NCBI RefSeq assembly: GCF_000730285.1
Contig: NZ_CP007174.1
Coordinates: 1,116,001-1,180,000 of the forward strand
Reading direction: 5' to 3'
DNA: 64,000 nt
Source: Candidatus Nitrososphaera evergladensis SR1
GTDB lineage: Archaea; Thermoproteota; Nitrososphaeria; Nitrososphaerales; Nitrososphaeraceae
Shown here: one piece after another, positions 22,172 through 54,432 of the stretch
How the letters are laid out: every line of letters starts with the position of its first letter
Numbering within the stretch: position 1 is the stretch's first letter
Position numbers and translations under genes: made by a program
The notes under the pieces: model-generated
Seen by the model: only the letters and a program-made list of their open reading frames with translations
The model's database searches: none
Told to the model about the DNA's origin: nothing

Positions 22172-22229
22172 ATCCATCCAAAGGAAGTATCTTATATGAA
22201 GAATGCAACTCTGTTGAAGCGAATTACAG

Positions 22230-22457
22230 CTAGATCGGTAATTTTGTTTCGGTCTTATTGTTCCAGAGGATTTCTTCCACTTTAAGCATGTTTCTAATAT
22301 CACTGGCGAATCCTGGTCCAAAGCTTGCGTTATGATTACTGGCAGGCATGATGACAAACGGAACGTCTGTTTTCTTGACAATGCCACTCCAGTACCTCAT
22401 CTCATTCAGCCTCTTACGATCAGTCTTGCTGAGGTGCTTTTCATCAATGACAGGTCT
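22230..22457 (-). pseudogene. Remnant of a protein-coding gene
   Basis: A 75-codon open stretch on the minus strand reads as plausible protein (VIDEKHLSKTDRKRLNEMRY, then DVPFVIMPASNHNASFGPGF, then RNMLKVEEILWNNKTETKLP), but there is no upstream start and a stop precedes it. The only start inside, an ATG before RYWSGIV, would give about 54 residues. It is most likely the 3' end of a lost gene between two cargo genes. The family is not recognised. Confidence 0.4.
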
Positions 22458-22663
22458 TTAGCTGTGTAAAAAAGTTCATTGTGATATAATTTCACATGTC
22501 TTATTTTACTTTCTAAATATTTCCTGAATTGACAGGGTTAGAGCATTGAAAGTAAGTTCTGATAGAACCTCGCTCTTTTCCTCTCTAAGTCGTGTCTTCT
22601 GTCATACACATAAGCTTCGTTAAAAGGTAATCCTTATTTTAAGGCATACTAGTCGAAACATAA

Positions 22664-25600: not shown

Positions 25601-26014
25601 AATACAGACTTATCCTACTCAAATCTTTCAACAAGCATTATAATCGAGAGTAATCTGTCAGGGTGTAATCTCAAGAATGCAGTTCTTCTAGGCGCACATC
25701 TTGATAAGGTTGATCTTACTGATGCGGACCTTAGAGGTGCAGACCTTAGAGGCACCTACTTAGGAAGGCTAAAAATCGGCAGTGTAACGGTTGATGAAAA
25801 TACCAAAACAGAGGGAGTAATTTTGCATTCTGCAGATTATTTTAAGAGATTTGACAAAGATATTAGGGAGCTAATTGAAAAGCAAAATAAACAGATTCGA
25901 TTTGATAAGCGAGATAGGCTAAAATCGATAAATATCATACCTAGAAGGACTAGCTCTTTCACAGCAGAAGAGATGTTCTCAGAAGTCAATGAATTTAAAT
26001 ACATTGATTTTTAG
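22664..26014 (+). CDS. Nuclease-NACHT-pentapeptide STAND protein (predicted immune NTPase)
   Basis: A 1116-residue cargo protein. Residues 1-170 look like a PD-(D/E)XK nuclease of the Mrr/Cap4 type: E22 in GGTFEHLVA, D62/D63 in LDDLAIYT and the Q-x-K motif 78-80 in LVLQIKNN. Residues about 335-640 are a NACHT/STAND NTPase with Walker A GAEFGIGKTSMM (343-354), Walker B HILLILDGLDEYGED (410-424) and IITTRMNAGYPRL. From about 790 to 1060 run pentapeptide repeats (NFENANFSKSNFENAIFYGA, ANLTGANLSYANLRGAKLS). Known relatives detect phage components and trigger the fused effector; here the repeats could be the sensor. The TTG start lies about 26 bp after TTATTTTAAGG. Confidence 0.85.
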   Translation: MAEEVARIASPLSTSNWGGTFEHLVASVYLVELLLGDMPYGLKEGTIEKVQFQTAWTGDSLDDLAIYTREPSMKLVLQIKNNLEFSPGDKTFIKVLKSCWSTFKKDTFDPKKEWYGIGLGIYQKNIDSHLQQLLNWARDSGDSQEFFQKVKAFDSQGKKRFVKIFEEGLKKASGLDVIDDSELFDFLKNLVVLYYDVKPEGKDRTWSINYLRQIVKDGTPQESILLFNHLVQTAAKYSASAGTLTLESLRQEIPYGIIQTDHKAVFDTVSYRKRLLEYLRFVEGFRDYTHELDKKPLKDYYLQNRAVVQDVRKWEEESSVEDGGNNWRIDKFLESGDWYLLVGAEFGIGKTSMMRMAASKLATAFLKKKEGFIPVLAFFKDKLRNVYYKENLDYVISTIVAPRQFSNKTHILLILDGLDEYGEDIEDLLLRLDSMHQSYPLMKVIITTRMNAGYPRLLEVDKFVRLLPFSKEEVDSFFDRYGVSLSYGDLSDFGLRDEEKAKPLFCWMMAVISSRTSTEIRMNKTLTANTRRALIYQEFIHSLLRGKYREEAKRSIDGFHALYVQEKKILRKIAALKQMTKGELTEVGLKQDLAKFGLVNWSQDIEPILTSYFTLRTDGLYKMVDFIHESFKEYLVAEYYIESILEGHYERLYVDMPSKETLSYLEGLVELLRNDSVRDQMGEIADMFLKSLSHGTPPNIITYSSFCNVLDSLNIMASKCFEDRDLVIGEKGAIQSELWSVTDGGSYVGKSMKDYESLWLHRWIAAYILNRLCNLPEKEELERLVKFTSHQMPNNIKEFKDAKLSRINFENANFSKSNFENAIFYGAHLTGCNFSHSNLRSTRFFGATMVGTSLDHSDCEKGNMTDANLTGANLSYANLRGAKLSNAILDSVNFGSLLVIEDGKVKAAENNGVVNLQDATLNGVKIRATVISNIELKGTNLSQCDLRSSDIVRVRLTEVNLFKSNLQNCKIVWCTFSGPNTDLSYSNLSTSIIIESNLSGCNLKNAVLLGAHLDKVDLTDADLRGADLRGTYLGRLKIGSVTVDENTKTEGVILHSADYFKRFDKDIRELIEKQNKQIRFDKRDRLKSINIIPRRTSSFTAEEMFSEVNEFKYIDF

Positions 26015-26101
26015 AAAGCAGAATGAAACCGCCTACTTTATTTCATCGTCCAGCTCTCAGGGGGCGTCTAAACTATTTACGCAATACAAAGACCATGTTT
26101 A

Positions 26102-27943
26102 TCAAATCTGCTCCCTCGTAAAGACACTTAGAGAAAGGGGCGAAGATTCATTGAATTGGTCCTCGTTCAGAGAGTTTATTTTTCCAAGCCAGAACCTTTT
26201 GCGGTCTCCATCAAAATCGACCTTTCTGATTTCTTCTTTAAAGACACCTATCTGCGCTATCTTGCCCTGTCTTATTGCAGAACGTAGGTTAGTGACCCGC
26301 TCGACCTTGAGCTTCATGTACACACCTTCTCCAGACTGGTAAATGTCATAGTTATCCAGAGTCTTTCCTTTCTCTGAGCCTATGCCACGCTCTTTCCAGT
26401 TTCCATTCCATCTGTTTATCCCGTTTTGAATGCAAAAGACATCTTGAGCATAGTCTTTTAGTGCAAATTTACCTAGCGCCTTGGAACCTTTGCCTAGGTC
26501 TCTGGTGACGGATATCCCGTCAGTCGCTATGAATGCCACGTCCTTTTCGATTCCATTGTTTCTTATGTATCGGTAAATCTGAGCTCGTGTGCTGCCTGTA
26601 ATGTGCGAAGCAATAACAGGATTGAAGAAGGTTCCCATTACTCTCTTTTTCTCTAATTGCATAGTTTCTGCCGTCTTGCCATAAATCGAGTTTAGCATTT
26701 CCTTGAATGGGATATGAAGAGGATCATTTCTTTCCTTTAGCTCTGTCTTTTTGGCATAGTATTCGCGGACGAATTCATCGTACGGGTGATAGTTAGGATC
26801 GTTTGGAACAAACTGCCACGAGTCTAATATCTCATACCACTCTTTTCTTTCACAAGCTTTCAATTCCTCTATGCTCACATAAGTGACAAACTTGCCCGTT
26901 GGATAAACGAGATTTGCATTGGCCTTAAACGGAAAAGGGCCGAGATACTTCCAATCAGGAACATTCGCAACCACCTTGAAAAAGCCCATCGTCGCGCCAC
27001 TTTCAATGGCATTTCCTTGCATCCATTGGCCGTCTGTCAAGTCATGCAGCTTGGCAATCTTGTCAGGATACGCCGAGTTGATGTCATAATTTCTTGCTTC
27101 GCCGATAACGCCTCTTTTTGTCTGTTCAAACCTCCCGCCTACAAATGCTCTGTAAGCCAATACTTGAGTATGTAATGGCACCTCGGCAAACCTAGGAAAT
27201 GCTATTCCGCGGAATATCATTGCCCTAGATGCAAGATATGCCGATGACAGGAGTCTTTTTGGATAGAAGCCAGCGGCTTGGTAGTAGAGCTCAAGCCACT
27301 TTTCTCCAAGTGCTTTTGTCATAATGCAATCATTGATGCAGTACTCACGCAGAAGGCGGATGTGGCGCCGGCGAAATCTTGCAGAAAATTCGCCTCTTGC
27401 AGACTTTAGTCCTTTAAAGTGCTCAGGCATCGGTCCTATGTTTCTCTCGTAGGCTTGCTGCAGGCTAGTTTTGAAAAACTGAGCAATGTCATAAAACGAT
27501 ACTGATTTGTGTCCTTTGGTTATGGTCAAGCATTTTTTTGGGATGTATTTTATGCGAAAGTCTCCGTGCTGAAAAGCAAGCTCTCTTGTGTGGAGGTATC
27601 TTTCAAGCTCTTTGCCAAGCAGCTTTAAAATGACAATGGCATCAAACTTTAGGTTATAGAATACGTTGACAGCATTCTGGTACTTTTTGTGAAAGAGAAA
27701 ATCTAGTACAGTGTCTGCGGATACGTCTTTGTCTAGGTATCTGCCGTCCGAGTCTGCAATTAAAAATATGTCTCCCTGATACGTCTCTGTGTCTAATCCA
27801 TAGACCGGCCTTATTCCCGCATCCGTTGCCTTTCTGTGCTGTGCCACTGTCGTATCGATCTTGGACAAATCTTTGTAATCTGTCATTGGTATAGACAACG
27901 ATGAGAGTAATGATGGTGGTGTCATGGCGAAGGATTTTGCCAA
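26102..27943 (-). CDS. polB: Casposon family B DNA polymerase
   Basis: A 613-residue PolB of the compact type found in casposons and related to protein-primed polymerases. The 3'-5' exonuclease domain starts with VYGLDTETYQGD and continues to FYNLKFDAIVIL and REYCINDCIMTKAL. The polymerase motifs are A NYDINSAYPDKI, B FKEMLNSIYGKTAE and C FIATDGISV. Motif C keeps the second Asp of the usual DTD, the catalytic one, but has Ala for the first. It presumably copies the element. It is the last gene of a four-gene minus-strand operon, and its start overlaps the upstream coiled-coil gene by 22 bp. Confidence 0.92.
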   Translation of the reverse strand: MAKSFAMTPPSLLSSLSIPMTDYKDLSKIDTTVAQHRKATDAGIRPVYGLDTETYQGDIFLIADSDGRYLDKDVSADTVLDFLFHKKYQNAVNVFYNLKFDAIVILKLLGKELERYLHTRELAFQHGDFRIKYIPKKCLTITKGHKSVSFYDIAQFFKTSLQQAYERNIGPMPEHFKGLKSARGEFSARFRRRHIRLLREYCINDCIMTKALGEKWLELYYQAAGFYPKRLLSSAYLASRAMIFRGIAFPRFAEVPLHTQVLAYRAFVGGRFEQTKRGVIGEARNYDINSAYPDKIAKLHDLTDGQWMQGNAIESGATMGFFKVVANVPDWKYLGPFPFKANANLVYPTGKFVTYVSIEELKACERKEWYEILDSWQFVPNDPNYHPYDEFVREYYAKKTELKERNDPLHIPFKEMLNSIYGKTAETMQLEKKRVMGTFFNPVIASHITGSTRAQIYRYIRNNGIEKDVAFIATDGISVTRDLGKGSKALGKFALKDYAQDVFCIQNGINRWNGNWKERGIGSEKGKTLDNYDIYQSGEGVYMKLKVERVTNLRSAIRQGKIAQIGVFKEEIRKVDFDGDRKRFWLGKINSLNEDQFNESSPLSLSVFTREQI

Positions 27944-28314
27944 ATGACATCCGGAATCTCCCCTTTTCTTCCACGCCTGCGCTCAAAGAATAACTTGAAT
28001 ACTTCGCCATATGGGAGCTCATGAGGAGTACCGCGAATATTGCTATGGATAAGGCGAACGTAGCGATGAACTCCCTTCATCCATTGTGAACGCTCCGCAT
28101 TTGCCTCTTGTCTTTTTTGCAGACGACTTTCTTTACTCTCTTGCTCTTTGCGTTTTTGACTCCGCTGCGATACTGCGCTTATTCTTGTCTCAACGCGTGA
28201 CAATTCCTCTTTCAGTTCATTCCTCAATTTCCTCACAGTTGATGTATTTCGAAATATTTCTAAGGCATCAAGTTGTGCTTGTATCTTTTTCCTTTGCTCC
28301 GCCAGTGTTGTCAT
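27922..28314 (-). CDS. Small coiled-coil protein upstream of polB
   Basis: A 130-residue, highly charged protein. Residues 1-75 form a long heptad helix (EQRKKIQAQLDALEIFRNTS, LKEELSRVETRISAVSQRSQ) and residues 80-125 a basic tail (VHRYVRLIHSNIRGTPHELP, RRRGRKGEIPDVIWQNPSP). It overlaps polB by 22 bp, which suggests coupled synthesis and a role with the polymerase, such as DNA binding or replication initiation; this is inference from position. Confidence 0.7.
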   Translation of the reverse strand: MTTLAEQRKKIQAQLDALEIFRNTSTVRKLRNELKEELSRVETRISAVSQRSQKRKEQESKESRLQKRQEANAERSQWMKGVHRYVRLIHSNIRGTPHELPYGEVFKLFFERRRGRKGEIPDVIWQNPSP

Positions 28315-28369
28315 TTTTTTCTTTTCTACCTCTGAAAAAGAAAGTATTGGAAAGATTGGGAGCGGCCGG

Positions 28370-28765
28370 TCAATAGACCAGCCTGAATCTTCGTATCATC
28401 CTGTCGTTTCTGCTTTTGTCTAACCATGTTAGTATCTTGACAGTCTTGCCAATCTTTATCCGGCCACTGTCCAATCCCCTCGACCATTGATTGATCAGGC
28501 TAACATTGGCAGAGCCGTTTGACCTTAATGGCAGGATGGCGTCAATCCATATGCCATTGTCTTTGTATGAGACATCAGTGCACTGGCTATACTCCGTGGC
28601 GTAGATCTGCCTGGTTTGAGGCTTGACTTCGAGTACATTGGGACTGTCTTTGTCCATGCTGTCGAATCTCCCTAGGCGGATGAATTTCCTTTTCCGTGTT
28701 TCTGGAGTAGCCGAAAGGCTTTTGTCGGGGGTGGTGGAAGAAATATTGGATACCGTTTCTTCCAT
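28370..28765 (-). CDS. Unknown casposon protein
   Basis: A 131-residue protein with a disordered Ser/Thr-rich start (EETVSNISSTTPDKSLS) and a beta-rich core (KFIRLGRFDSMDKDSPNVLE, NGIWIDAILPLRSNGSANVS). The C-terminal part KIGKTVKILTWLDKSRNDRM is basic, and the core could be an OB-like nucleic-acid-binding fold, but no motif proves it. It lies in the polB operon, four bases after the next upstream gene. Confidence 0.6.
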   Translation of the reverse strand: MEETVSNISSTTPDKSLSATPETRKRKFIRLGRFDSMDKDSPNVLEVKPQTRQIYATEYSQCTDVSYKDNGIWIDAILPLRSNGSANVSLINQWSRGLDSGRIKIGKTVKILTWLDKSRNDRMIRRFRLVY

Positions 28766-28769
28766 TTTT

Positions 28770-29021
28770 TTATTCGCCCTCCTGTACTGGCGTCAGCTTG
28801 AGGAACTGCTCTGTGCCCATCTGCACCAGTTTGACGTTTACGTATCTCGCGTTTTTTCCGCAGTTTGCAAGAGCACCTTTTGGCAATGCAACCAACTTTG
28901 AAAAATTCTGGTTGCAGATTTTTCTATTTCCAAAGTCGATGGTTATTTGTTCGCCACCGACTTTTTCTTTTGTACTTCCTTTCACGTTATTTCTTACGTA
29001 ATTCACAACATACGTCTCCAA
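28770..29021 (-). CDS. Unknown small casposon protein, first gene of the polB operon
   Basis: An 83-residue protein with alternating strands (QITIDFGNRKICNQNFSKLV, YVNVKLVQMGTEQFLKLTPV). The pattern again resembles a small beta-barrel, and it may pair with the next gene product. Its promoter (TATA-like CTATAAACA on this strand, near 29030) overlaps the palindrome region shared with the divergent winged-helix gene. Confidence 0.6.
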   Translation of the reverse strand: METYVVNYVRNNVKGSTKEKVGGEQITIDFGNRKICNQNFSKLVALPKGALANCGKNARYVNVKLVQMGTEQFLKLTPVQEGE

Positions 29022-29040
29022 ACCCTAATGTTTATAGCGG

Positions 29041-29075
29041 TACGCAAAGTACCCTAGGGTACACAAAGTAGCGTA
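29041..29075. promoter_or_regulatory. Palindromic operator between the divergent casposon operons
   Basis: GTACCCTAGGGTAC (29049-29062) is a perfect 14-bp palindrome, flanked by TACGCAAA on the left and ACAAAGTAGCGTA on the right, which are themselves near-inverted. It lies between the polB operon (start 29021) and the winged-helix gene (start 29080), where one bound dimer could control both. The winged-helix protein is the natural candidate as its own regulator. Confidence 0.6.
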
Positions 29076-29079
29076 CTGA

Positions 29080-29682
29080 GTGATGGAACTAAATGATTAT
29101 TATTGTAGAAGGATGTTGGCGAGCCTTGAAAAGAGGGGAAAGCTTGGATCTAATGAATTCAAAAGAGTGATGACTGCCGGCCCCAATCCAATAATGTCTG
29201 AACGGCCTTTTAGAGAGAGGCTGCGCCTCCTCGTGGAAGCAGGTCTCGTGACTCGTTTACCTGATAAGGAAGACAGCGGGAAAGTGTGGTATACTCTGGA
29301 ACCGGGCATTCTGGACAATGAGCGTGCATTATTCAACGAAATTCAGGAACGACTTGAGGAGATGGATAGACAATATGCCCAAATGGAAAAGAATATCTCT
29401 GCAATAAGCACAGTCGATAAGGCATATCAACTGTCCTTGGCAATGAGGGAGCTAGCGAGCATCGAGTACCGTCTATGGATTCTCAAAGTAATATTTCGCA
29501 GAAATAAGAGACCTAAGGTTCTTTCCAAGAAGATAGAAGAACTGAAAGGAAAATTGTTTCATCTGACTCACATTGGAAATGCGGATAAGTGGACAGTCCA
29601 AGTTATCTTGGGAGTCCTAGAAAGGCTGGAGGCTGAGCTGCATCGAGAGTTAGTTGCATCTCAAGAAGAGATGACATCATAA
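29080..29682 (+). CDS. Winged-helix DNA-binding protein of the casposon
   Basis: A 200-residue protein with an N-terminal winged helix (CRRMLASLEKRGKLGSNEFK, FRERLRLLVEAGLVTRLPDK, VWYTLEPG) and a long helical coiled-coil C-terminal half (about 85-195). Probably the regulator of the divergent polB operon and of itself through the palindrome in front. The start is GTG 29080 or ATG 29083. Casposons of several families carry HTH genes, but their roles are unknown. Confidence 0.75.
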   Translation: MMELNDYYCRRMLASLEKRGKLGSNEFKRVMTAGPNPIMSERPFRERLRLLVEAGLVTRLPDKEDSGKVWYTLEPGILDNERALFNEIQERLEEMDRQYAQMEKNISAISTVDKAYQLSLAMRELASIEYRLWILKVIFRRNKRPKVLSKKIEELKGKLFHLTHIGNADKWTVQVILGVLERLEAELHRELVASQEEMTS

Positions 29683-29708
29683 TCCGTGTTTATTACCGTG
29701 TAGACAGT

Positions 29709-29734
29709 TGTTTACAGCTGTAAACAGGCGTAAA
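29709..29734 (+). promoter_or_regulatory. 18-bp palindromic operator of the ribbon-helix-helix gene
   Basis: TGTTTACAGCTGTAAACA (29709-29726) is a perfect 18-bp palindrome. A further half-site GTAAAC follows at 29730-29735 (GGCGTAAACATG), spaced like tandem ribbon-helix-helix operators. It lies directly in front of the GTG start at 29738, so autorepression is likely. Confidence 0.6.
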
Positions 29735-29737
29735 CAT

Positions 29738-29953
29738 GTGACAAAAACAATAACTGCTAGAATACCCGACGAAGTCCACTCGGAGGTACTAAATAGATGC
29801 AATCGAGCGGGCGTAAACATCAACTACTTCCTTAATCGCGCACTTGAGCTCGTAATTACAGGAAGTTCGCAATTTGAATTTGGCGATGAAGAGGTTGAAG
29901 ACGATGAAGGTCATCAACAAAGAACATTACAAAAATCCCTCGTAATTAATTGA
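29738..29953 (+). CDS. Ribbon-helix-helix (CopG/Arc-like) DNA-binding protein
   Basis: A 71-residue protein: an N-terminal beta strand (TKTITARIPDEVHSEVLNRC), then two helices (NINYFLNRALELVITG) and an acidic tail (FGDEEVEDDEGHQQ). This is the classic RHH layout. The GTG at 29738 starts it exactly at the strand; the longer frame from 29708 runs through the palindromic operator and is unlikely. It is probably a plasmid-type copy or operon repressor. Confidence 0.75.
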   Translation: MTKTITARIPDEVHSEVLNRCNRAGVNINYFLNRALELVITGSSQFEFGDEEVEDDEGHQQRTLQKSLVIN

Positions 29954-30094
29954 GGAACTAGGAGCGTTTTCTATCCTTAGGAACCGTAACCGCTGCACTT
30001 GAAAATGTATGAATAGTAAATTGCGAGTCAGTGGACTATGCCCTAAGATACGAGACAGCGATAGAATACAACGTGAAAAGGTGTATGAAACAGA

Positions 30095-30370
30095 TTGCTG
30101 ACACGGAAGCTTAGACAAAACAGTATCAAAAGTATCGAAGGCATGATAGATAAGATGGAAGAACTAAATCACAAGCATGTAGAAGACGAAATGGCAAAAG
30201 GAAGGAACCCCGATGAAAGTATTGTTATGCAGGTTAACGAAATGTATCGTCTTCTCTTAAGAGGGTGGCTGCGATCAGAGAAAGAACTCTTGGAAGTTGA
30301 GGAAAGAATCCGAGAACTGGAAAAGAAGTCTAGAAAGCAAAATACAACAAGAAAGAAGCGCAAGAAATAA
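30095..30370 (+). CDS. Small basic coiled-coil protein, unknown
   Basis: Up to 91 residues, mostly one long charged helix (KSIEGMIDKMEELNHKHVED, LLEVEERIRELEKKSRKQNT) ending in a Lys/Arg-rich tail. Starts are TTG 30095 or ATG 30143, and I cannot choose between them. No family recognised. It follows the RHH gene in the same direction inside the casposon. Confidence 0.45.
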   Translation: MLTRKLRQNSIKSIEGMIDKMEELNHKHVEDEMAKGRNPDESIVMQVNEMYRLLLRGWLRSEKELLEVEERIRELEKKSRKQNTTRKKRKK

Positions 30371-30480
30371 TCAGCGAGTCCGGTCTGTTTACTCGCCTTG
30401 TTACTGCAATGATTCTTCTGGCCTTTTGTCCATGTTCAGACAACGATTGATGTTATGGTCTAAAGATACTGTTCAACAAA

Positions 30481-30550
30481 TCATAACGTACGACAATACT
30501 TAGTCACGCGGCACAAATCCACGCTCAAAAAGGCGGAAGGAAACATCTTA
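30481..30550 (+). pseudogene. Remnant A of a cas1 5' region
   Basis: It begins TCATAACGTACGACAATAC, close to the operator part of the intact cas1 leader (TCATAACGCACGTCATAAC). It continues with GCGGCACAAA, the inner motif of the terminal repeat in its right-end orientation, then ACGCTCAAAAAGGCGGAAGG, which aligns with the cas1 start (ACGCTCAAGGGCAGAAAG) with a 2-base insertion. The reading frame is broken. It stands just before the DUF3237-like gene. Confidence 0.5.
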
Positions 30551-30566
30551 TCGACGGAATGACAGG

Positions 30567-31010
30567 TTAGGCTTTGTATCCTTTTACGCGAACTTCTCCA
30601 GTTGCCAAGTTTACCGTCCCGACTCCCCATACAACTATAGAATTTACCCAAGCGTGCGCCGAGTAGTTAGACTTCAACGTCACATTCTCCCGCAAATGGA
30701 CGATGCCCTTAGCGTCGATAGTTCCTATTCCGTCGGCGAACATTGATACCTTCCCCCCATCAGCCATATCGAATTGTCCATGAATGTGAAGCTCTGATAG
30801 ACCATCAGCACGAATGTTGAGATAATCCACTCCGTGCCATGAGCCTTTGAACCTGGGGCCATCGACAGTACCTTCAAGCGATACATCGAACCGCGCACCC
30901 TCGGGAGGCGGAGCGGCCTTTCCTGTGGTTATTGCCTGCAAGTTTGCACCATACTCAACAACGCCTGTGATGTGCAATGCAACCTCATAGACGAGTTCCG
31001 ATGATTCCAT
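30567..31010 (-). CDS. DUF3237-like protein
   Basis: A beta-rich protein of 147 residues from ATG 31010 (a TTG at 31052 would add 14). The sequence fits the DUF3237 beta-barrel family: LVYEVALHITGVVEYGANLQ, GPRFKGSWHGVDYLNIRADG, MFADGIGTIDAKGIVHL. Members are uncharacterised, with possible small-molecule binding. It is the last gene before the right terminal repeat and lies between that repeat and cas1 remnant A, so it may have been captured in an earlier insertion round. Confidence 0.7.
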   Translation of the reverse strand: MESSELVYEVALHITGVVEYGANLQAITTGKAAPPPEGARFDVSLEGTVDGPRFKGSWHGVDYLNIRADGLSELHIHGQFDMADGGKVSMFADGIGTIDAKGIVHLRENVTLKSNYSAHAWVNSIVVWGVGTVNLATGEVRVKGYKA

Positions 31011-31098
31011 TTGCTTAGATATCGGCTTCTTGTCTATAACTTTGTGCCCCAAGCCCGTCGTTACTTCTGGTATGCGTACTGTTGTACATCATTACAAA

Positions 31099-31141
31099 AA
31101 GCGGCACAAATTCCCTCGTAAAAAGGGGGGAGAGTGTTTTT
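31099..31141 (-). repeat. Right terminal inverted repeat of the casposon
   Basis: 43 bp, the exact reverse complement of 19806-19848, reading AAGCGGCACAAATTCCCTCG at its inner end and GGAGAGTGTTTTT at its outer end. Perfect identity over this length indicates that the element is young or kept functional. Confidence 0.93.
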
Positions 31142-31154
31142 AGCGACAAAGAGT
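31142..31154 (+). repeat. Right target-site duplication of the casposon
   Basis: AGCGACAAAGAGT, followed by AAAA, the same as at 19793. A related AGCGGAAAAAGAGTA stands at about 31249-31263 and may be a decayed copy of the same target. Confidence 0.85.
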
Positions 31155-31197
31155 AAAAGGGAACGCACCCTTCCACGCTCACTTTTGTGCCGCTTTT
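31155..31197 (+). repeat. Decayed second left terminal repeat, abutting the casposon
   Basis: Directly after the right target duplication the sequence runs AAAAGGGAACGCACCC, then TTCCACGCTCACTTTTGTGC, then CGCTTTT. It lines up with the left terminal repeat: AAAA at the start, ACG in the middle, and TTTGTGCCGCTT at the same distance. This looks like the left end of an older casposon into whose border the intact element inserted. Confidence 0.55.
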
Positions 31198-31329
31198 GCA
31201 GCCTATTTGACGCGAAAAAGCGCTTCTTTTTTGTAGCTCGCAACGCTAGCTAGCGGAAAAAGAGTAGGAAGGAAGTGGATAAAGGGAATCTCCTCTTTGA
31301 GCACAAAAATCTGTACTGTCTTGTAACCT

Positions 31330-31410
31330 GTAAAGCTCGGTAGCTGGTAAGGATGGCCAGCTCAAGAATGACCTTGAAAGGAAAGAAGAACCACAACAAT
31401 ACCTGAACAT
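31330..31410 (+). pseudogene. Remnant B of a cas1 5' end
   Basis: ATG at 31368 reads MTLKGKKNHNNT and then stops (31404-31406), against TLKGRKNHYNIK in the intact Cas1. Upstream, TAAAGCTCGGT matches TAAAGCTCAGT of the intact cas1 leader. The coding similarity ends after about a dozen residues. It stands 40 bp before the secreted-protein gene at 31446. Confidence 0.6.
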
Positions 31411-31445
31411 CATGATAGAATCGTCTTCCTTTAATTTGATTAATC

Positions 31446-32333
31446 ATGATGACCTTGATAACCCAAGTGCAAAAATTGTTTGCTCGCATAATGCGGCAGC
31501 CCATAATGACCCTATTCCTTTTCGTGGCGCTATTGTTGTTATTGTTACTGAAGCCAGCGTCAATCTTTGCTCAAGGAAAAATAGATGTTACATCATCTCC
31601 AGCATATTTTGGAAACTTGCCGTCAGCTCTCGCTGCAAGCGATAATAACAATAGTGCATCTGCCGATAACACTTGGTATATCGGCAAAGGAACCAAGCCA
31701 GATACTTATGTCAAGTATGCAATCAACAATCTTGGAACTAACAACAACCAGACATTCATTATGACTATATACTTCAAAGATTACAATGTAACTGGAAAGT
31801 ATTGGATAGCACCTGTGTATATTTTTGATGCTCCTAACAAGGAAAATAATATTGATGCAGGTAGATTTCCCCATCTCGTAAACGGGACATTTCTATTAAA
31901 TGATGAGACAATGAGAGTAATACAAGGCTCAGACATTCCTCAGCAATTAGCTCAATACAAAGACGCTTATGGATATTCATTGGACTGGCTGAGTGATTTT
32001 GCCACGAAATCTTCTCCAAGGTCTTTATCGCAGCCTTCTTGGGGCAAAGCAGCAAGTTTGGGCGGCATCGAGATTTGGCTAAAAAGTACGGAGACTCTGA
32101 CGGTGCCGGCAGGTACATTCAATACGACCGTGATAACTTGGCATAAGGGTGCTGCTGCTTCCGACAGCAAGATATGGGTAAACAAGGATTTCCCATATCC
32201 AATAAAAGCAAGAGTCTACTCTGAAGTGATTCATCCGCCTGCGCCTATTTGGTTTGAATTTGAGCTTTTGGAGTATGGCAAAGGCAGCCTGTTGAACCGC
32301 TGGCAATCGTCGGATTATTTAACCCTTAACTAG
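31446..32333 (+). CDS. Secreted protein of unknown function
   Basis: A 295-residue protein with a long signal segment (IMTLFLFVALLLLLLLKPAS, cleavage likely near IFAQG) and a beta-rich exported domain with many N-x-S/T sites (TNNNQTF, YNVTGKY, LVNGTFLL, FNTTVITW). The C-terminal half (IEIWLKSTETLTVPAGTFNT, VNKDFPYPIKARVYSE) recalls domains in which a side-chain-rich strand precedes a conserved 'PAGTF..TVITW' turn, seen in archaeal surface proteins. The function is unknown. It follows cas1 remnant B in the same direction. Confidence 0.75.
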   Translation: MMTLITQVQKLFARIMRQPIMTLFLFVALLLLLLLKPASIFAQGKIDVTSSPAYFGNLPSALAASDNNNSASADNTWYIGKGTKPDTYVKYAINNLGTNNNQTFIMTIYFKDYNVTGKYWIAPVYIFDAPNKENNIDAGRFPHLVNGTFLLNDETMRVIQGSDIPQQLAQYKDAYGYSLDWLSDFATKSSPRSLSQPSWGKAASLGGIEIWLKSTETLTVPAGTFNTTVITWHKGAAASDSKIWVNKDFPYPIKARVYSEVIHPPAPIWFEFELLEYGKGSLLNRWQSSDYLTLN

Positions 32334-32420
32334 CGCAGTCTCTAGTACATAATCACTACCGTGGGAGAAGACCCGTTTATACGTGGAGACCCAAAATAGT
32401 TTCTCATCTTTGGCCTTGTC

Positions 32421-32635
32421 ATGACAGTGCTTGCCATAGTGTTCGTCATTTTCTACGTCTTGCCAAATTTGCATATTCCATTAATTATTCTCATACTTAA
32501 CGGGTACATCACAAATTGGAACAATATTCTGGCTTACTGGTAGACTTCTCGTGCATACTCTTGCCGCTAATGCAGGCAGAGATGATTTCAGGTCAGACAA
32601 TGACGATAAATGAAGCTGTCATGAAATTCGCTTAG
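32421..32635 (+). pseudogene. Broken gene for a small membrane protein
   Basis: From ATG 32421 a strongly hydrophobic frame (MTVLAIVFVIFYVLPNLHIP, LIILILNGYITNWNNILAYW) stops at 32541. In the next frame the sequence continues as plausible protein (VDFSCILLPLMQAEMISGQT, MTINEAVMKFA) to a stop at 32633. Before the ATG, reading GEDPFIRGDPK also runs into a stop at 32397. One frameshift and one stop therefore suggest a decayed gene with two membrane helices. Confidence 0.45.
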
Positions 32636-32639
32636 GGTG

Positions 32640-32735
32640 GACCGAAAAGCTAAAGCTTGGGAATTATTAGCACCGCTATGACGGTAGCTGGCCAAAAGAA
32701 CCATTACAACGTCAAGGCGCTACTCCTGGTATTAT
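32640..32735 (+). pseudogene. Remnant C of a cas1 5' end
   Basis: AAAGAACCATTACAAC (32695-32710) is a 16-base exact match to cas1 (19943-19958), followed by GTCAAG against ATCAAG. It reads QKNHYNVKALL, against RKNHYNIKMLK. Upstream, CGGTAGCTGG is shared with remnant B. No start codon or further Cas1 sequence follows. The secreted-protein gene at 32775 ends 40 bp later on the other strand. Confidence 0.65.
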
Positions 32736-32774
32736 CGCTGCACTGCACATGATCTAACTCTGAGATTCTCTCTA

Positions 32775-33350
32775 TTATGTACAGACACCACAACATGCGC
32801 AATCGTAGGCTAATATCTTGCCGCTAAATGCATCGACATAATATAGATAAAAATACCTAGGTGCAGGGGCCTCATACTTTTCCTTGTCCGTTTTATCTGT
32901 GACAACCCATATGTACTTGTCGCTTGTGTCATTTTTTGATATAAAAAATGCATGGTCGCCATAGTTGCCTATGAAGGGCCGTGTATCAGTCCAATTAACC
33001 GCGAGTGTTGCAGGATTGGCTATGTAGATTACGTACTGCGAAACTGTATCGTTAGCCCAAGGAATTGTACCATTATACTTCCAGTACTGAAATTGAATTG
33101 TACGGATGATACTATCCTTGCCGATGCCCGGCAAATGGGAATTAGCTATGATTTGTGCAGCTGTTTGGTTTGAGATTGTCGTCATCATCGTGCGTAAAGA
33201 CTGGACAGACGACTGCTGTTTTGTACTGATGATGGCTTTACCGTTAGTAGTATATGTGGTGTTGCCAAAGGTAGGCACAGCAAGCGCTACAGTAGATGGT
33301 GTCAGTAAAAATACAATTCCGACAACAACGACAATGCTCTTCAGCATCAT
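32775..33350 (-). CDS. Secreted protein of unknown function
   Basis: A 191-residue protein with a typical signal peptide (MMLKSIVVVVGIVFLLTPST, cleavage near ALAVP). The exported part has several N-x-S/T sites and a C-terminal PepSY-like ending (FYLYYVDAFSGKILAYDCAC), finishing CACCGVCT with four Cys, perhaps a metal or disulfide site. No family is recognised with confidence. It is convergent with remnant C. Confidence 0.7.
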   Translation of the reverse strand: MMLKSIVVVVGIVFLLTPSTVALAVPTFGNTTYTTNGKAIISTKQQSSVQSLRTMMTTISNQTAAQIIANSHLPGIGKDSIIRTIQFQYWKYNGTIPWANDTVSQYVIYIANPATLAVNWTDTRPFIGNYGDHAFFISKNDTSDKYIWVVTDKTDKEKYEAPAPRYFYLYYVDAFSGKILAYDCACCGVCT

Positions 33351-33399
33351 CGCCTAACAGTACGAGCAAGTGGCGTTAAAGTATTGAGCAGAAATTCTA

Positions 33400-33510
33400 G
33401 GTAAGCATGGCAAGTAATCCCTCACCATAAGGGAAGTCAGGATACTCTTTTGGCAAAGTCGACCTGAAGGGGAAGAAGAACAATTACAATGTAAAACTTC
33501 TGAAATGTAT
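33400..33510 (+). pseudogene. Remnant D of a cas1 5' end
   Basis: From 33458 the frame reads VDLKGKKNNYNVKLLKCIAA, matching TLKGRKNHYNIKMLKGYGA of Cas1 over 16 residues; the similarity ends where the convergent membrane-protein gene begins (its stop at 33517). No start codon is present. The flank TTAAAGTATTGA (33378-33389) recalls GAAAGTATTGA at the intact cas1 start. Confidence 0.6.
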
Positions 33511-33516
33511 TGCTGC

Positions 33517-33831
33517 CTATTCCTTGGCATTGTCATTTTCTTTGGGAATCTTTTTTAGCGTCAAAAATGACCTTTCCTCCATTCCAAGCACAAGCAAAAA
33601 AGAACCCAAACTTCCCAGTGCTACTACGGCAACAAAATAGCCCGAAGCGTTCTGCAACGCCATGTCGCAAGTTCCGGGCGGTCCTTCGTTAGGCGCAAAA
33701 TCCCTATGAGAATAAACTTGGCTAGGGGAACAGCCATGGGCGACCATCTGCCATACCGGAAATGGGATGCCTATCACTCCTACTATGATGGCTATTCCTG
33801 CGGCTACCTTTTGCGGATGCATTGCAGACAA
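33517..33831 (-). CDS. Small two-helix membrane protein
   Basis: A 104-residue protein with membrane helices at about 8-30 (VAAGIAIIVGVIGIPFPVWQ) and 62-83 (ASGYFVAVVALGSLGSFLLV). The loop between holds two Cys (HGCSPSQVY, GTCDMALQN) and N-x-S. A basic tail (LKKIPKENDNAKE) is likely cytosolic. No family recognised. It lies next to cas1 remnant D. Confidence 0.6.
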   Translation of the reverse strand: MSAMHPQKVAAGIAIIVGVIGIPFPVWQMVAHGCSPSQVYSHRDFAPNEGPPGTCDMALQNASGYFVAVVALGSLGSFLLVLGMEERSFLTLKKIPKENDNAKE

Positions 33832-33964
33832 AGTAAATGTAGCCTAGGCAAACAGATAAGAAAATCGTCAGCTTTTGCCAAGTGCAAAAATCCTGTACAC
33901 TTCTTCTTTATAGCGTCCTTGGACGCCTGTCTTATTTATCGGGCATGGCTTCTTTAACGCTTGA

Positions 33965-35362
33965 GTGAGAAGTAAAGATCAGAAAGTAGGTAGATTGCAA
34001 AGAGATTTCAGTTTTACAAGGCAGTCGACCTACAAGCACCGTAATAATAATCATGATTTCTACTACTTGAAAAATGCTGTCACATACTCTGGCCTTATTC
34101 GTTCTATTGTATTCCTAGTCACAACAGGCAATATTGTTATCATGCTAATACTATCAAGTCCACCTGCCTTTGCTGGCAGCGTTACTCAGGAAAACCTGCC
34201 GCCAGATTATGCTAGATGGCGAGAGACCAATCCAACTCTTGCAATGAATGTAACGCATTTTGCTTCACAAAATTATACGATGATTTCGCTGCGCCTATAT
34301 GACAATCGTACGAACCAGAACATCCCTTTCTCAACCTTTCTTCTTGATTTGACGGATGCACGAGAAGGAACGGCTATCAACAGCAGTCGCGGCACTTTTT
34401 CTCCTCCCGCTTCGCTCTTGAAGGATTTCTTCCAAGCAGAGAAAGGCGAGTTAACGCTAAAAATAATTTATGATCCGGTGCTCTCCGGCCCTCAAATAGC
34501 CGGCAATAGGGAGCCTTTTCTGAACGCATGGAAGGCCGATCCGGGAGGATACATCATAGTCAGAACACCCTCGATAAGTCCCACTGGCTCGTACATTTTA
34601 CATGTAACAATATTTGGAGCCTTTGCACCATCTGCTATATTTTCAGACGAAGATACGCCTACAGCGATTCTCTCTTTTAACGGAGATGATGTAAGAAACA
34701 AGACTGTAGTTGTTACCAATCATGGCTTGAATGCTGCGCCTGCACCTCCCGCGACAGACAAAAGCAGCAAGACTGCCAATGACTCTCAAAAACAAGGCGA
34801 AACGTCAGTAATCGCAGTAACAAAGGGCGCCATTATTCCATCTTCAAACATTTCATTGTCAAAAGGTCAGACAACTGTACAGGTGCCATTGATACTGACT
34901 TACAAGCCCAGCGTCAACGGCAGCAGCAACAATTCTGGCCTCATTCCCTTCGTAACGGTGGAGGGAGTGGGTGCATGTGATAGCGGCAACTTTATCCCTG
35001 CATCAATTGCAAACAAGATGACATCTGAGCAGAGAGTGGCGATCCTGATGGAAAAGAGCGCACAGATAGATGCAGGAAATCTCACTCCGCCCACAAACAT
35101 GGATCATGGCACCTTTCTTAGATGCCAGTTTCTCGAAGCTCAAGGTATACGTATAGACGCGTCATTTGCCCCTGAAAAGGTCACATTAAAGCCCGGCCAA
35201 TCAGCAACCCTCCTTCTTTCCATATCGTTGCCAAAGGATTGGCCTTCTGACTATGTCAACCGCGAGGTTCCAGTATCAGTGATGTTGTCAGACGCGGACA
35301 ATCCTCGCAGGACAGACCTTTACATCGATAGAATTACGGTCTATCTCAATCCGTTAGGATGA
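33965..35362 (+). CDS. Large secreted beta-rich protein of unknown function
   Basis: A product of up to 465 residues. A hydrophobic signal segment (IVFLVTTGNIVIMLILSSPP, then AFAGS) begins at about residue 47, so the true start may lie downstream of GTG 33965, but no better start is evident. The exported part is rich in N-x-S/T sites and has Ig-like features: YTMISLRLYDNRTNQNIPFS at the start and FAPEKVTLKPGQSATLLLSI near the end, typical of NEW3/COG1470-like domains. A surface-layer or cell-envelope role is likely; nothing more specific can be said. Confidence 0.7.
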   Translation: MRSKDQKVGRLQRDFSFTRQSTYKHRNNNHDFYYLKNAVTYSGLIRSIVFLVTTGNIVIMLILSSPPAFAGSVTQENLPPDYARWRETNPTLAMNVTHFASQNYTMISLRLYDNRTNQNIPFSTFLLDLTDAREGTAINSSRGTFSPPASLLKDFFQAEKGELTLKIIYDPVLSGPQIAGNREPFLNAWKADPGGYIIVRTPSISPTGSYILHVTIFGAFAPSAIFSDEDTPTAILSFNGDDVRNKTVVVTNHGLNAAPAPPATDKSSKTANDSQKQGETSVIAVTKGAIIPSSNISLSKGQTTVQVPLILTYKPSVNGSSNNSGLIPFVTVEGVGACDSGNFIPASIANKMTSEQRVAILMEKSAQIDAGNLTPPTNMDHGTFLRCQFLEAQGIRIDASFAPEKVTLKPGQSATLLLSISLPKDWPSDYVNREVPVSVMLSDADNPRRTDLYIDRITVYLNPLG

Positions 35363-35471
35363 CCTGAAATATAAGTGAGGATCATCGTCCAATGACGTAA
35401 AAACTGAAAATAATTTGGCCGTTTATCGCCATAACAAAGCTCTTATTTTATGCCTGCAAAGGTACTGCGCT

Positions 35472-35933
35472 GTGCCCAAGCGCAACTTTAGCACTCTTGA
35501 CGAGTTCAAGGCCAACCTGCACAAGGAAGGGGCTACGCTCGTCGAGTTCTCTGGAGGCAAAGTGCCCTGCATACTGGTAAGTCCCAAGAAATACGAAGAG
35601 ATGCTGGGCAAGGTCTATGGCAGGCGCGTGTCTGCTGATACTCTATTGGACATCTTTTACGACGGGCGCGACGTGTTTGTAGATGTCAACATCAAATTTA
35701 GAGATACGGACTTTGAAGGAAATTTCCTCCTGTATGCAAACGACATGCTAGAGTGGTTTGAGGCGCTTGCGGAAAGCGGAATGATGGCGATGGGCCCAAG
35801 CGAGACTACGTACACAAACTCGCAGAATATCTTCATGATCCAGCTTCCAAAAAAGGACGCGGCAGAAAAGGCGCTTGAAATCATAAAGACAAACGCCAAG
35901 AACCGCGTGGTAAGGGGAATGCAGGATGGCTAG
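35472..35933 (+). CDS. Unknown protein, first of a two-gene operon
   Basis: A 153-residue soluble protein (NFSTLDEFKANLHKEGATLV, EFSGGKVPCILVSPKKYEEM) with alternating alpha/beta pattern and no known motif. I place the start at GTG 35472, 26 bp after TTATTTTATG, instead of the TTG at 35415 whose first residues are unlike the rest. The stop overlaps the next gene by eight bases. Confidence 0.65.
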   Translation: MPKRNFSTLDEFKANLHKEGATLVEFSGGKVPCILVSPKKYEEMLGKVYGRRVSADTLLDIFYDGRDVFVDVNIKFRDTDFEGNFLLYANDMLEWFEALAESGMMAMGPSETTYTNSQNIFMIQLPKKDAAEKALEIIKTNAKNRVVRGMQDG

Positions 35934-36108
35934 AGAAGAAGAAAAAAAGAAGAAAAAGAAAGAAGTCGAAGAATTCGCAGAGGAAGACGACGACCACTTT
36001 AAACTGTACGGCAAGCGCGCATGGGAAGTGGAGTACGGCGAAAAGTGCCCGACGTGCGGCAAGCGCATCGACGAGTTTGGGTTCTGCGCGTGCGGAAGCG
36101 CCGGCTAG
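35926..36108 (+). CDS. Small zinc-ribbon-like protein
   Basis: A 60-residue protein with a Lys/Glu-rich start (REEEKKKKKKEVEEFAEEDD) and a C-terminal C-x2-C ... C-x-C motif (EKCPTCGKRIDEFGFCACG). It overlaps and probably works with the preceding unknown protein. The function is not known. Confidence 0.65.
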   Translation: MAREEEKKKKKKEVEEFAEEDDDHFKLYGKRAWEVEYGEKCPTCGKRIDEFGFCACGSAG

Positions 36109-36174
36109 TTATGGAACTCTTTTGCCATACGCGTAAACGACGTAAACTAGCGTGCTTTTTTGGAGTAAAAATGG

Positions 36175-36249
36175 TGCGACGGCCGGGATTTGAACCCGGG
36201 TTACCAGATTGGCAATCTGATGTCCTAGACCAAACTGGACGACCGTCGC
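36175..36249 (-). tRNA. tRNA-Gly (anticodon GCC)
   Basis: The minus strand reads GCGACGG ... CCGTCGC as acceptor stem, an anticodon arm CAGAT-TGCCA-ATCTG with anticodon GCC, and a T arm with GGTTCAAATCC. Discriminator A is followed by an encoded CCA (36172-36174). No intron. It lies between the small zinc-ribbon gene and the heme-gene cluster. Confidence 0.95.
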
Positions 36250-36301
36250 ACGCTATAACTTTCGTTAAGTCTAGGTAATTTAAACATGTCCTTGCTTTTC
36301 A

Positions 36302-44237: not shown

Positions 44238-45158
44238 CGAAAGATACGGGATGTCGACTTGCTTTAGGTCTTCGGCAGCTTCAACGTCTGCGTGGATCGC
44301 AGACGCTTCCTTTACCAATGCAGACGTTTCGTCGTAGCGGGCGCTAAAGTGTGTAAGAAACAGCTTTTTTGCGCCAGCCTGCCTGGCGACAGTTGCTGCT
44401 TCTGTGGCAGTCGAGTGCGAGGTCTCAAGCGCCTTTGCAAGCTTGTCGTGGGTGTACGTCGACTCGAACACCAGCACGTCGCACCCTGAAAAAAATTTTG
44501 TCAATTTGTCAGTCGGCCTTGTGTCGCCGGATATGCCTATCTTTCTGCCCGGCCTTGGAGGGCCGAGTACGTCGGCCGACCTGACCGTCTTGCCGTTGTA
44601 CTCAATGTCCTGCCCGTGCTGCAGCTTGCTGTACAGCTCGCCTTCCGGTATGCCCATCTTTTTCACGAGCTCCACGTTAAAGGCTCCCGGCCTGTCAGAC
44701 TCGTCCAGCCTGTACGAAAGGGCCGGTACAGAGTGCCTGGCCTCGCAGCACGTTATCCTGTAGTCGCTTTCCTGTACGACGACGCCTTCGCCTTCGATAG
44801 TGTGGATTGCGACCTCAAAGGTCAGGCCAAAGTTGATTATCCTCATGTTCTCAAGCAGGAATTCCTTCAGGCGCGGCTGGCCGTAGATGTCAAGCCTCTT
44901 TTCGCGCCCCTGAAGAGACATTGTCTGCAAGAGCCCAAGCAGGCCAACGCAGTGGTCTGCGTGCATGTGAGTGACAAACACCTTCATCTTGCGGTTCATG
45001 CCAAGGCCGGCCTTGATGAAGTTGCGCTGCATGCCCTCGCCGGCGTCAAACAGCAATAGCTCGCCGTCGCGCATTATGGCGATGGATGAAAGCCCCCGCT
45101 CCGGAGTTGGCGCGGCTGATGAAGTGCCAAGGAAAACCATCTGCATGTTTGCTGCCAT
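44232..45158 (-). CDS. rnz: Ribonuclease Z (tRNA 3' endonuclease)
   Basis: Removes the 3' trailer from tRNA precursors. A 308-residue metallo-beta-lactamase fold with LGTSSAAPTPERGLSSIAI, the Zn motif VTHMHADHCVGLLGLLQTM, SGDTRPTDKL with the Asp ligand, and LTHFSARYDE near the end. Several Met codons near the start (45158, 45146, 45140) leave the first residues uncertain. Downstream of prs on the same strand. Confidence 0.94.
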   Translation of the reverse strand: MAANMQMVFLGTSSAAPTPERGLSSIAIMRDGELLLFDAGEGMQRNFIKAGLGMNRKMKVFVTHMHADHCVGLLGLLQTMSLQGREKRLDIYGQPRLKEFLLENMRIINFGLTFEVAIHTIEGEGVVVQESDYRITCCEARHSVPALSYRLDESDRPGAFNVELVKKMGIPEGELYSKLQHGQDIEYNGKTVRSADVLGPPRPGRKIGISGDTRPTDKLTKFFSGCDVLVFESTYTHDKLAKALETSHSTATEAATVARQAGAKKLFLTHFSARYDETSALVKEASAIHADVEAAEDLKQVDIPYLSS

Positions 45159-45207
45159 GTTGTCGTGCTACTATGATACGGTGCACACAGGGCCTGATTT
45201 AACCTTG

Positions 45208-46101
45208 TCACAAAAGAAGGGCTTTCCGCACGGCCTCTGCAAGCGCCTTGCTCAGGTCGACTTTGGCGTGCCTGCCCGGTATGGAGTTGGTGGCGATTAT
45301 CTCCTGGACGCCTGCCGCCGCTATCTTTGAGGCAGCGTCGCCTATCAGCAGCGCGTGCGCGCACATGGCGTATATCTTGCCTGCGCCGTTTTTGCGCAGC
45401 ACCTCCGCCGCCTTGACGATGCTTCCCCCGCTGCTTATCATGTCGTCAATAAGTATCGCATCGCGGCCTGAAACGTCCATATCTATCCTTTGCTCCACCG
45501 TGACTTCGCCCGTGGTCCTGTCGCGGGATTTTTTCAGGGCGGTCATGTCTGTTTTTAGCAGCCTTGCAAATTGCTGCGCCCTTGGAATGCCCCCTGTGTC
45601 CGGCGACACCACGAGCGCGTCTTTGAGCTTTAGGCTTGCCGCATGGGCCGCCAGAAGTGGCATCGAAGAAACGTTGGTGATGCTTGAAAAGAAGGCAAGG
45701 GCTGCTTCACTATGGATGTCGACGGTAACTACTGACTTGGCTCCAGCAGCCGCAAGCAGCTTTGCGACCAGCGCCACGCTCACTGACTCGCCTTCCAAAA
45801 AAGCCCTGTCCTGCCTTGCATAGGCAAGGTACGGTATCACGGCGCATACCTCGGCGCCATCATCGGCGCACTTTTTTATCATCATCATGGCCTGCAGAAG
45901 GTGGGTGTCGGTGGGCGGGTAGGCCGACTGCACGACGGCGCATTTTTTGCCAATGCTTGCTGTAAGCCTGATCTTGCTCTCGCCGTCGGAAAAAACACGC
46001 AGTTCCGCCGATACGAGCTTGGCGCCAAGGTGTTTTGCAATGCCGGCGGCAAGCTCGGGCGAGGAGGGACCTGCAACTATGGAGGAAATGTCGGCCGCCA
46101 A
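45208..46101 (-). CDS. prs: Ribose-phosphate pyrophosphokinase
   Basis: Makes PRPP from ribose-5-phosphate and ATP. The 297 residues include the ATP/metal part FSDGESKIRLTASIGKKCAV, VIPYLAYARQDRAFLEGESV, the VTVDIHSEAAL segment and the PRPP-binding loop AILIDDMISSGGSIVKAAEV. Its start lies about 110 bp from the divergent secreted-protein gene. Confidence 0.94.
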   Translation of the reverse strand: MAADISSIVAGPSSPELAAGIAKHLGAKLVSAELRVFSDGESKIRLTASIGKKCAVVQSAYPPTDTHLLQAMMMIKKCADDGAEVCAVIPYLAYARQDRAFLEGESVSVALVAKLLAAAGAKSVVTVDIHSEAALAFFSSITNVSSMPLLAAHAASLKLKDALVVSPDTGGIPRAQQFARLLKTDMTALKKSRDRTTGEVTVEQRIDMDVSGRDAILIDDMISSGGSIVKAAEVLRKNGAGKIYAMCAHALLIGDAASKIAAAGVQEIIATNSIPGRHAKVDLSKALAEAVRKALLL

Positions 46102-52418: not shown

Positions 52419-52982
52419 TTACGGTATCGACCTGCCGTACAGCTTGCCTTCAAGCGCGAGCTTGTACATCTCTGCTACATACGGGTTCTTGGCCGGCGTT
52501 TCCTGCTGCAGCTCGACGAGCCTCGCGTACACCCTTACCACGTACGCAAGGGCGCCCATGAATGCCACTACGACACCCATGTTGAACATCCAGTGGTTCG
52601 GGACGGAGAAGATTTCCTCGACCATCCAAAAGTGCCACATCTCGTTTACGCCGACTGTGAACATGGTCGCCAGATAGCCAATGATGGTTATCTTTAGGCC
52701 TGTGTTCATCGAGTTGTTTGGACCTCTGAGGACAGGGACCCTTCTGTCATACATTGCGACGAGCCCCCAGCCAACGGGCAGGGCGATAAAGTGGCTGTAC
52801 AGCCACTAGTGGGCCGGCGTGAATGCAGAATCGCGGATGGACGTCTGGTGCAGCGAACCATCTACGTAGTTGTCTATCTCCACGGACAGTGCTATCTGAG
52901 CCAGCACTATGACCATGATGTAGATCTTTTTCAGCCGCTGTACCTCTACTTCTTTCGGTATGAGTGATGGTATGAGAGCCAT
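52419..52982 (-). pseudogene. amoC: amoC copy interrupted by an in-frame TAG
   Basis: Ammonia monooxygenase subunit C, a multi-helix membrane protein. The N-terminal part (LIPKEVEVQRLKKIYIMVIV, NYVDGSLHQTSIRDSAFTPA) and the C-terminal part (WLYSHFIALPVGWG, YDRRVPVLRGPNNSMNTGLK, NEMWHFWMVEEIFSVPNHWM) are in the same frame, separated by one TAG at 52806-52808, codon 59 from ATG 52982. The family has Trp there (HWWLYSH), so TGG to TAG is a single change. Otherwise the 187-codon gene looks intact. Soil ammonia oxidisers carry several amoC copies, so this one may be dispensable, read through, or a sequencing error. No amoA, amoB or amoX is in the window. Confidence 0.88.
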
Positions 52983-53194
52983 GGCGTACCCTGAATAATG
53001 TGACATTCTTATGAATGTATCCAATATTGAATATTATCATATAATTATACTAGTATCTGCTATGTTATCACCGTGTATCCATATAGTGGCATATAGAAAA
53101 AATAACTATTAGATCATAACAGTGAATATTTATGTTAATATGTAGATTCTACAAGATAACGATAGTATCTTGACTACATATGCAAGTAATGTAT

Positions 53195-53230
53195 TCGAAA
53201 GCAAACGCACTTTCGACAAGTCTTATATAG
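53195..53230 (+). promoter_or_regulatory. nirK promoter with upstream inverted repeat
   Basis: TCGAAAG (53195-53201) and CTTTCGA (53210-53216) form an inverted repeat just upstream of the TATA box CTTATATAG (53222-53230), which stands 26-28 bp before the nirK ATG. Position upstream of TATA fits an activator site. Confidence 0.5.
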
Positions 53231-53253
53231 ATCACGTTGATTATCGGTAGGCA

Positions 53254-54432
53254 ATGAACAAGGCAATCATTGCAGGGTTGGCTGCCGGTGTTCTGGTAGT
53301 GGGTTTAATTTTCAGTCCACTTTTCAATGGATTCCCACTTTCAGCGGCACAGGCTGCTCCGACTGGTGTCACTAGACACTATACCTTGATCGCAAACGAG
53401 AAAGTCGTTCAGGTGGCCCCTGACGACGCTCTGCATCCGGGCGGAATAATGTACAACGCAATGGTCTTCAACGGCACTATCCCCGGTCCAGTCATGGCGT
53501 CAAACGTGGGCGACACCGTGGAAATCACCTTGAAGAATGAAGGCAAGCAGATCCACAGCATCGACTTCCACGCGGCCATTGGCCCAAGTCAGGTGCTCTC
53601 TGGCAACGTTGCTCCGGGAGAATCCAAGACTTGGACGTTCAACACACCAAACTCTGGCGCATTCCTGTACCACTGTGGTGCTGACGGCCTCAACGGCGTA
53701 TGGGAGCACATTGCAAACGGCATGTACGGCGGATTCGTAGTGCACCCGACAAATGAGGCTCCAGCAAAGGAGTTCTATGTGGTATTCGGTGAAATCTACA
53801 ACAGCGCAGACGGCGGTCTGTTCGTTGGTGCAAACAAGACAGGCTCATTTGACATTACCAAGTTTGCAACAGAGCAGCCTGACCTCATCCTGACCAACGG
53901 CATGGCGCACAAGTACGCTCCAGCTGTCGGCCAAGCAGTCAAGCTTACTCTGAATGCCAACGCCACGCTCTTTAAGGTCAAGCCTGGCGAACTCACAAGA
54001 TGGTACATCGTGGCTCCAGGACCAAACGAGGGAGTTTCGTTCCACTTCATCTCCGGCCAGATTGACGTAAAGGACGGATCGTTCAAGGGCAGGGGTATGA
54101 CGCAGGAAAGGAATGAAGAAACTTGGTGGGTGCCGGTAGGCTCTGCTTCAGTGATCGAGTCTACGTTCCCTGAAGAAGGCATCTATGTGGGCGTCGACCA
54201 CAACATGGCTCACGTCGTAAGGGGCGGAGCGTTTGTAGTCCAGGCCACAAACAACTCTACCGCAGATGACGTGCCACCAGAAGCGTGGGTTCCATCAAAG
54301 GCATGGCTGACTGAACACCCAACGATGGGAGGTTCCATGACGGGCGGCTCCGCGATGGAGGGCTCTTCTGGCAACGCCACATCGAGCGGTGGTAACGCCA
54401 CATCATCTGGCGGCAACACCACCTCGGGTTAA
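53254..54432 (+). CDS. nirK: Copper-containing nitrite reductase NirK
   Basis: Reduces nitrite to NO in the archaeal ammonia-oxidation metabolism; located outside the membrane. The 392-residue precursor has a signal peptide (IIAGLAAGVLVVGLIFSPLF). Cupredoxin domain 1 has the type 2 ligand region SIDFHAAIGP and the type 1 site LYHCGADGLNGVWEHIANGM; domain 2 supplies SFHFISGQ and VGVDHNMAHVV. From about residue 355 a Ser/Gly/Asn/Thr repeat tail (NATSSGGNATSSGGNTTSG) follows, unusual and likely glycosylated. It is probably a strong, leaderless gene. Confidence 0.93.
   Translation: MNKAIIAGLAAGVLVVGLIFSPLFNGFPLSAAQAAPTGVTRHYTLIANEKVVQVAPDDALHPGGIMYNAMVFNGTIPGPVMASNVGDTVEITLKNEGKQIHSIDFHAAIGPSQVLSGNVAPGESKTWTFNTPNSGAFLYHCGADGLNGVWEHIANGMYGGFVVHPTNEAPAKEFYVVFGEIYNSADGGLFVGANKTGSFDITKFATEQPDLILTNGMAHKYAPAVGQAVKLTLNANATLFKVKPGELTRWYIVAPGPNEGVSFHFISGQIDVKDGSFKGRGMTQERNEETWWVPVGSASVIESTFPEEGIYVGVDHNMAHVVRGGAFVVQATNNSTADDVPPEAWVPSKAWLTEHPTMGGSMTGGSAMEGSSGNATSSGGNATSSGGNTTSG

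Follow-up and report, generated by a model that had tools for sequence, protein, structure and literature searches.

The main structural AmoC of Nitrososphaera viennensis is AmoC6 (NVIE_028540; PMC10030591). In bacterial PmoC and AmoC, the Cu_C copper is bound by Asp156, His160, and His173 in the Methylococcus capsulatus numbering (PMC7584546). The amoC1 gene of N. viennensis declines under copper limitation, alongside amoA, amoB, and amoX. For Candidatus Nitrososphaera evergladensis SR1, whose genome is a PacBio/Celera contig of 2,954,373 bp from an enrichment culture, seven amoC copies that are 72–97% identical have been published (PMC4084955). An amoC pseudogene is not found in PMC4814877. 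Here, we describe one amoC copy of SR1 that is interrupted by an in-frame amber codon. It lies in a stretch of 64,000 nucleotides, bases 1116001–1180000 of contig NZ_CP007174.1, which is referred to as the window, and all positions are those of the window unless a genome is named.

The nirK-linked amoC locus

The interrupted copy neighbors a divergently oriented gene that resembles copper nitrite reductase (nirK), and the flanks of this pair can be aligned with those of N. viennensis over 12.4 kb. The order of the genes is kept: MCO1-like oxidase, ZIP-like permease, secreted protein, small zinc-ribbon-like protein, amoC, and nirK. The label of the small protein is a tentative one, read from its sequence, and no Pfam or NCBIfam model matched it. 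In N. viennensis EN76 (G042, 2,527,938 bp), the positional ortholog of the interrupted copy is found at 45031–45591; it is intact and has TGG at codon 59. Its neighbors include NVIE_000600 (MCO1) and NVIE_000590 (permease), which were matched by description (PMC7785015). If the six copies of N. viennensis are numbered by position, its nirK-linked copy is very probably amoC1, and the high locus number of amoC6 fits such a numbering. The DNA identity between SR1 and N. viennensis is 87% for amoC and 85% for nirK, and the two nirK genes occupy the same place. Solved NirK chains match the SR1 nirK neighbor with E values down to 6e-35. The coordinates of the features are collected in Table 1.

Table 1. 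Features of the nirK-linked amoC locus of SR1 (positions in the window)
Feature	Position	Strand	Basis or remark
amoC paralog with one internal TAG, 187 codons	52419..52982	-	Translation; ortholog is the nirK-linked amoC of N. viennensis
In-frame TAG, codon 59	52806..52808	-	TGG in every other full-length copy
In-frame ATG, codon 77, proposed restart site	52752..52754	-	Product would be without the Cu_C ligands
Codon 58, His, third Cu_C ligand (= PmoC His173)	52809..52811	-	D-x3-H-x12-H motif aligned to the solved bacterial AmoC chain 9cl6
Codon 45, His, Cu_C ligand (= PmoC His160)	52848..52850	-	Alignment and PMC7584546
Codon 41, Asp, Cu_C ligand (= PmoC Asp156)	52860..52862	-	Alignment and PMC7584546
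amoC–nirK intergenic region	52983..53253	.	93% identical to N. viennensis, gapless
Probable TATA box of the interrupted amoC, TTCATAAG	53008..53015	-	25 nt 5' of the ATG; putative function, from sequence comparison
Copper nitrite reductase-like gene (nirK), divergent neighbor	53254..54432	+	TIGR02376, E=4e-44, under the curated cut-off

The amoC–nirK intergenic region is more alike in the two species than either of the genes that flank it. Its core of 213 nt (94% identical) is the top conserved noncoding run of at least 100 nt in a 364-kb sample of the SR1 assembly. In other genera, the region had no match of appreciable length, and its predicted RNA fold was not significant. No Rfam match was obtained around the interrupted amoC, its promoter region, or the intergenic region.

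An amber codon at an invariant tryptophan

Translation of the minus strand from 52982 to 52419 gave a frame that is intact apart from the TAG at codon 59, with no frameshift and no second stop. Codon 59 is TGG in all of the other full-length amoC genes of the family (42 of 42). It is also TGG in each of 104 further loci, drawn from other genomes as well as viral contigs; this count is slightly biased because one of the six short peptide patterns used to gather the loci contains Trp59. The scan of viral contigs yielded only amoC genes with TGG, which were 81–83% identical. These results confirm the original prediction of a single amber codon at a conserved Trp position in a full-length amoC, read in the same frame on both sides and free of other damage across its 187 codons. 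Judged by the codons, one G-to-A change would be the only event needed. With the TAG taken as Trp, the product matches the AmoC family (PF04896) at 50.8 bits against a cut-off of 26.7 (E=1.9e-13). All three Cu_C ligands (Asp41, His45, and His58) are encoded; the TAG follows immediately 3' of the His58 codon, and Trp59 thus adjoins a histidine ligand of the metal. The gene carries an inactivating lesion while its orthologs are intact, which is one of the marks of a recent pseudogene.

Past selection and the age of the stop codon

The dN/dS values of the interrupted copy against its two nearest intact copies were 0.053 and 0.034. The value was 0.03 after the stop and 0.04–0.1 before it; strong purifying selection acted in the past on both sides of the TAG. 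When 11 sites that were not resolved are set aside, the changes on the SR1 lineage comprise 15 synonymous and five nonsynonymous ones, the latter in four codons (39, 74, 89, and 183), and the stop itself. A branch that was neutral over its whole length would predict 130–150 amino acid changes, against approximately four found. Because at most about four codons changed their amino acid, neutral drift can account for less than ~8% of the branch; the upper 95% limit of the neutral fraction is 6–8%, a rough parsimony bound made without a dated tree. The same four or so changes are too few for relaxed selection after the lesion to be visible. The scarcity of nonsynonymous changes indicates that the stop is either young or an artefact.

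Proposed history of the interrupted copy

The SR1 genome contains six further full-length amoC genes that are free of stops. Among them, the positional ortholog of amoC6 (929671–930231 of the genome) is intact, with a dN/dS of 0.02 and 14.8 kb of synteny shared with N. viennensis. We consider it likely that the interrupted copy is a dispensable, nirK-linked amoC paralog with a nonsense allele of very recent origin. In the proposed course of events, one G-to-A change would have turned the invariant Trp59 codon of this copy into TAG. Translation would then stop past His58 and leave a fragment of 58 residues that keeps the Cu_C ligands and loses the remainder of the subunit. The cell would have ceased to make the nirK-linked subunit, presumably as a neutral loss, and such a loss would be tolerated because six other full-length amoC genes, including the ortholog of amoC6, exist. 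Of the options first raised for this locus, the best supported is that of a very young pseudogene in a genome with several amoC copies, given the single TAG, the low dN/dS, and the six intact copies. The importance given to its integrity on the grounds that AmoC is a core subunit of ammonia monooxygenase is weakened, since six intact copies remain, the amoC6 ortholog among them.

The published count of seven amoC genes in SR1 (PMC4084955) probably corresponds to six working ones. If the base is real, a nirK-linked copy that was strongly selected until recently can go without loss of ammonia oxidation. The stop bears weakly on the role of extra amoC copies in soil archaea because SR1 is an enrichment and hard to test. 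The interrupted amoC is real as sequence and ordinary and minor as biology.

Alternative explanations

An error in the sequence or the assembly, or a mixture of bases at this site within the enrichment culture, would mean that the living population has TGG and an intact gene; we regard this as unlikely. The sequence was assembled from single-molecule reads of an enrichment metagenome in which ~50% of the 16S clones were Nitrososphaera, although the PacBio coverage was ~179x and an Ion Torrent assembly of ~127x served as comparison (PMC4084955). Since the culture is an enrichment, TAG could also represent a mixed or minority allele. The rest of the gene looks functional, and the scarcity of other changes suits a sequence error equally well. 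The error level was judged from the 364-kb sample, using the genes shared with N. viennensis: 220 of them, with 56,762 codons, were intact, and two of the 14 flagged entries are this amoC. In the reverse direction, 226 were intact and nine flagged. The assembly is not rich in errors, since most genes of the sample are intact. Errors on the PacBio platform are mostly indels, yet hardly any indel damage was seen in the sample. The interrupted amoC is the clearest internal stop among the ~220 credible genes, with 94% protein identity and 80% of its mismatches in the third codon position; of the remaining 12 flagged candidates, most had a weak coding signal or low third-position bias, were short, or lay at frame ends. 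A collapse of amoC copies is also unlikely because the nearest SR1 paralog is only 84% identical at the DNA level. A second apparent in-frame TAG, at position 3610 in an ORF that is 97% identical, was rejected once all six frames had been inspected, because the ORF is probably an antisense shadow frame.

Readthrough of the TAG by a suppressor or near-cognate tRNA, giving full-length AmoC perhaps at a low level, is far less probable. A real amber codon read through at a useful rate, which would supply the nirK-linked AmoC in small, controlled amounts, is slightly less probable again. The frame is conserved after the stop as much as before it, and in bacteria, readthrough has been proposed for in-frame stops that are conserved and have low dN/dS (PMC7918605). 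However, no CUA anticodon was present in the 35 readable of 39 tRNA-like hits (four were unread), and the search for PylS returned one weak match (24 bits against a cut-off of 178) that probably stems from another class II synthetase. Within the sample, TAG serves as a normal stop, ending 72 of 202 credible genes (TGA, 70; TAA, 60), so general amber suppression would come at a cost. Downstream of the TAG, the RNA folded no better (z = -0.59) than shuffled sequences, and none of the relatives has TAG at codon 59. Programmed readthrough, as originally suggested, thus found no support. A "tRNA-Stop (tta)" call was rejected as an intron-containing tRNA-Lys.

The proposal that residues 1–58 and a product of 111 residues restarted at Met77 act jointly or singly is the least credible of all: the in-frame ATG is present at 52754 as predicted and the 111-residue piece retains a match to Pfam AmoC (E=4.7e-7), but Met77 is an ordinary family residue (34 of 43 copies), residues 1–58 alone score under the Pfam cut-off, no split AmoC was seen among the relatives examined, and the restart product cannot replace AmoC because Asp41, His45, and His58 are missing.

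A divergent AmoC lineage and a casposon-like block

The metal site of AmoC has been stated to be conserved in all species (PMC10030591). We observed a divergent AmoC lineage in which Asp41 is kept and both Cu_C histidines are replaced by Asn (H45N and H58N). It occurs in SR1 at 2606131–2606691 of the genome (L007, L078), in N. viennensis at 2028103–2028663 (L072, L126), and in two further genomes (L137 and L142 in G043; L140 in G023), covering three genera. The SR1 and N. viennensis members share 9.5 kb of synteny and have a dN/dS of 0.08. Because of this distribution, synteny, and constraint, the variant appears to be functional despite lacking a normal Cu_C site. Nothing on it was found in a literature search.

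Elsewhere in the window, a block of low G+C content (~19900–36250) ends near a tRNA-Gly gene (36172–36249). It encodes a Cas1 homolog (19926–20996), a B-family DNA polymerase (26102–27943), a HEPN protein, and a NACHT-pentapeptide protein of 1116 residues. The block is probably the casposon NitEve-C1 of PMC6563490.

Comparison with related amoC copies

Broken amoC copies are also present in other Nitrososphaeraceae, namely on contigs C12 and C15 of G062 (L130 and L131) and on contigs C3, C52, and C177 of G017 (L129, L132, L133, and L134). They resemble the SR1 copy as extra amoC genes hit by stops or frameshifts. In G062, one copy has single frameshifts and another has several lesions. The copies of G017 are heavily decayed, and those on C3 and C177 carry many lesions, in contrast to the one in SR1. 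Since broken copies occur at several stages of decay, the family appears to gain and lose amoC paralogs as a matter of course. One of the G017 copies (L129) has a short garbled stretch right after codon 58, the same spot as the SR1 stop.

The interrupted copy agrees in family, length, and Cu_C ligands with amoC6, which serves N. viennensis as its main structural copy, and with the SR1 gene orthologous to amoC6. That SR1 gene is intact and is not the one interrupted. The N. viennensis amoC beside nirK shares with the interrupted copy the same neighbors in the same order, the divergent nirK, and 94% protein identity. It differs in being intact, with TGG at codon 59, and in its TATA box, which is TTTATAAG instead of TTCATAAG. 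This difference of one base might make the promoter of the interrupted amoC weaker than that of its intact ortholog.
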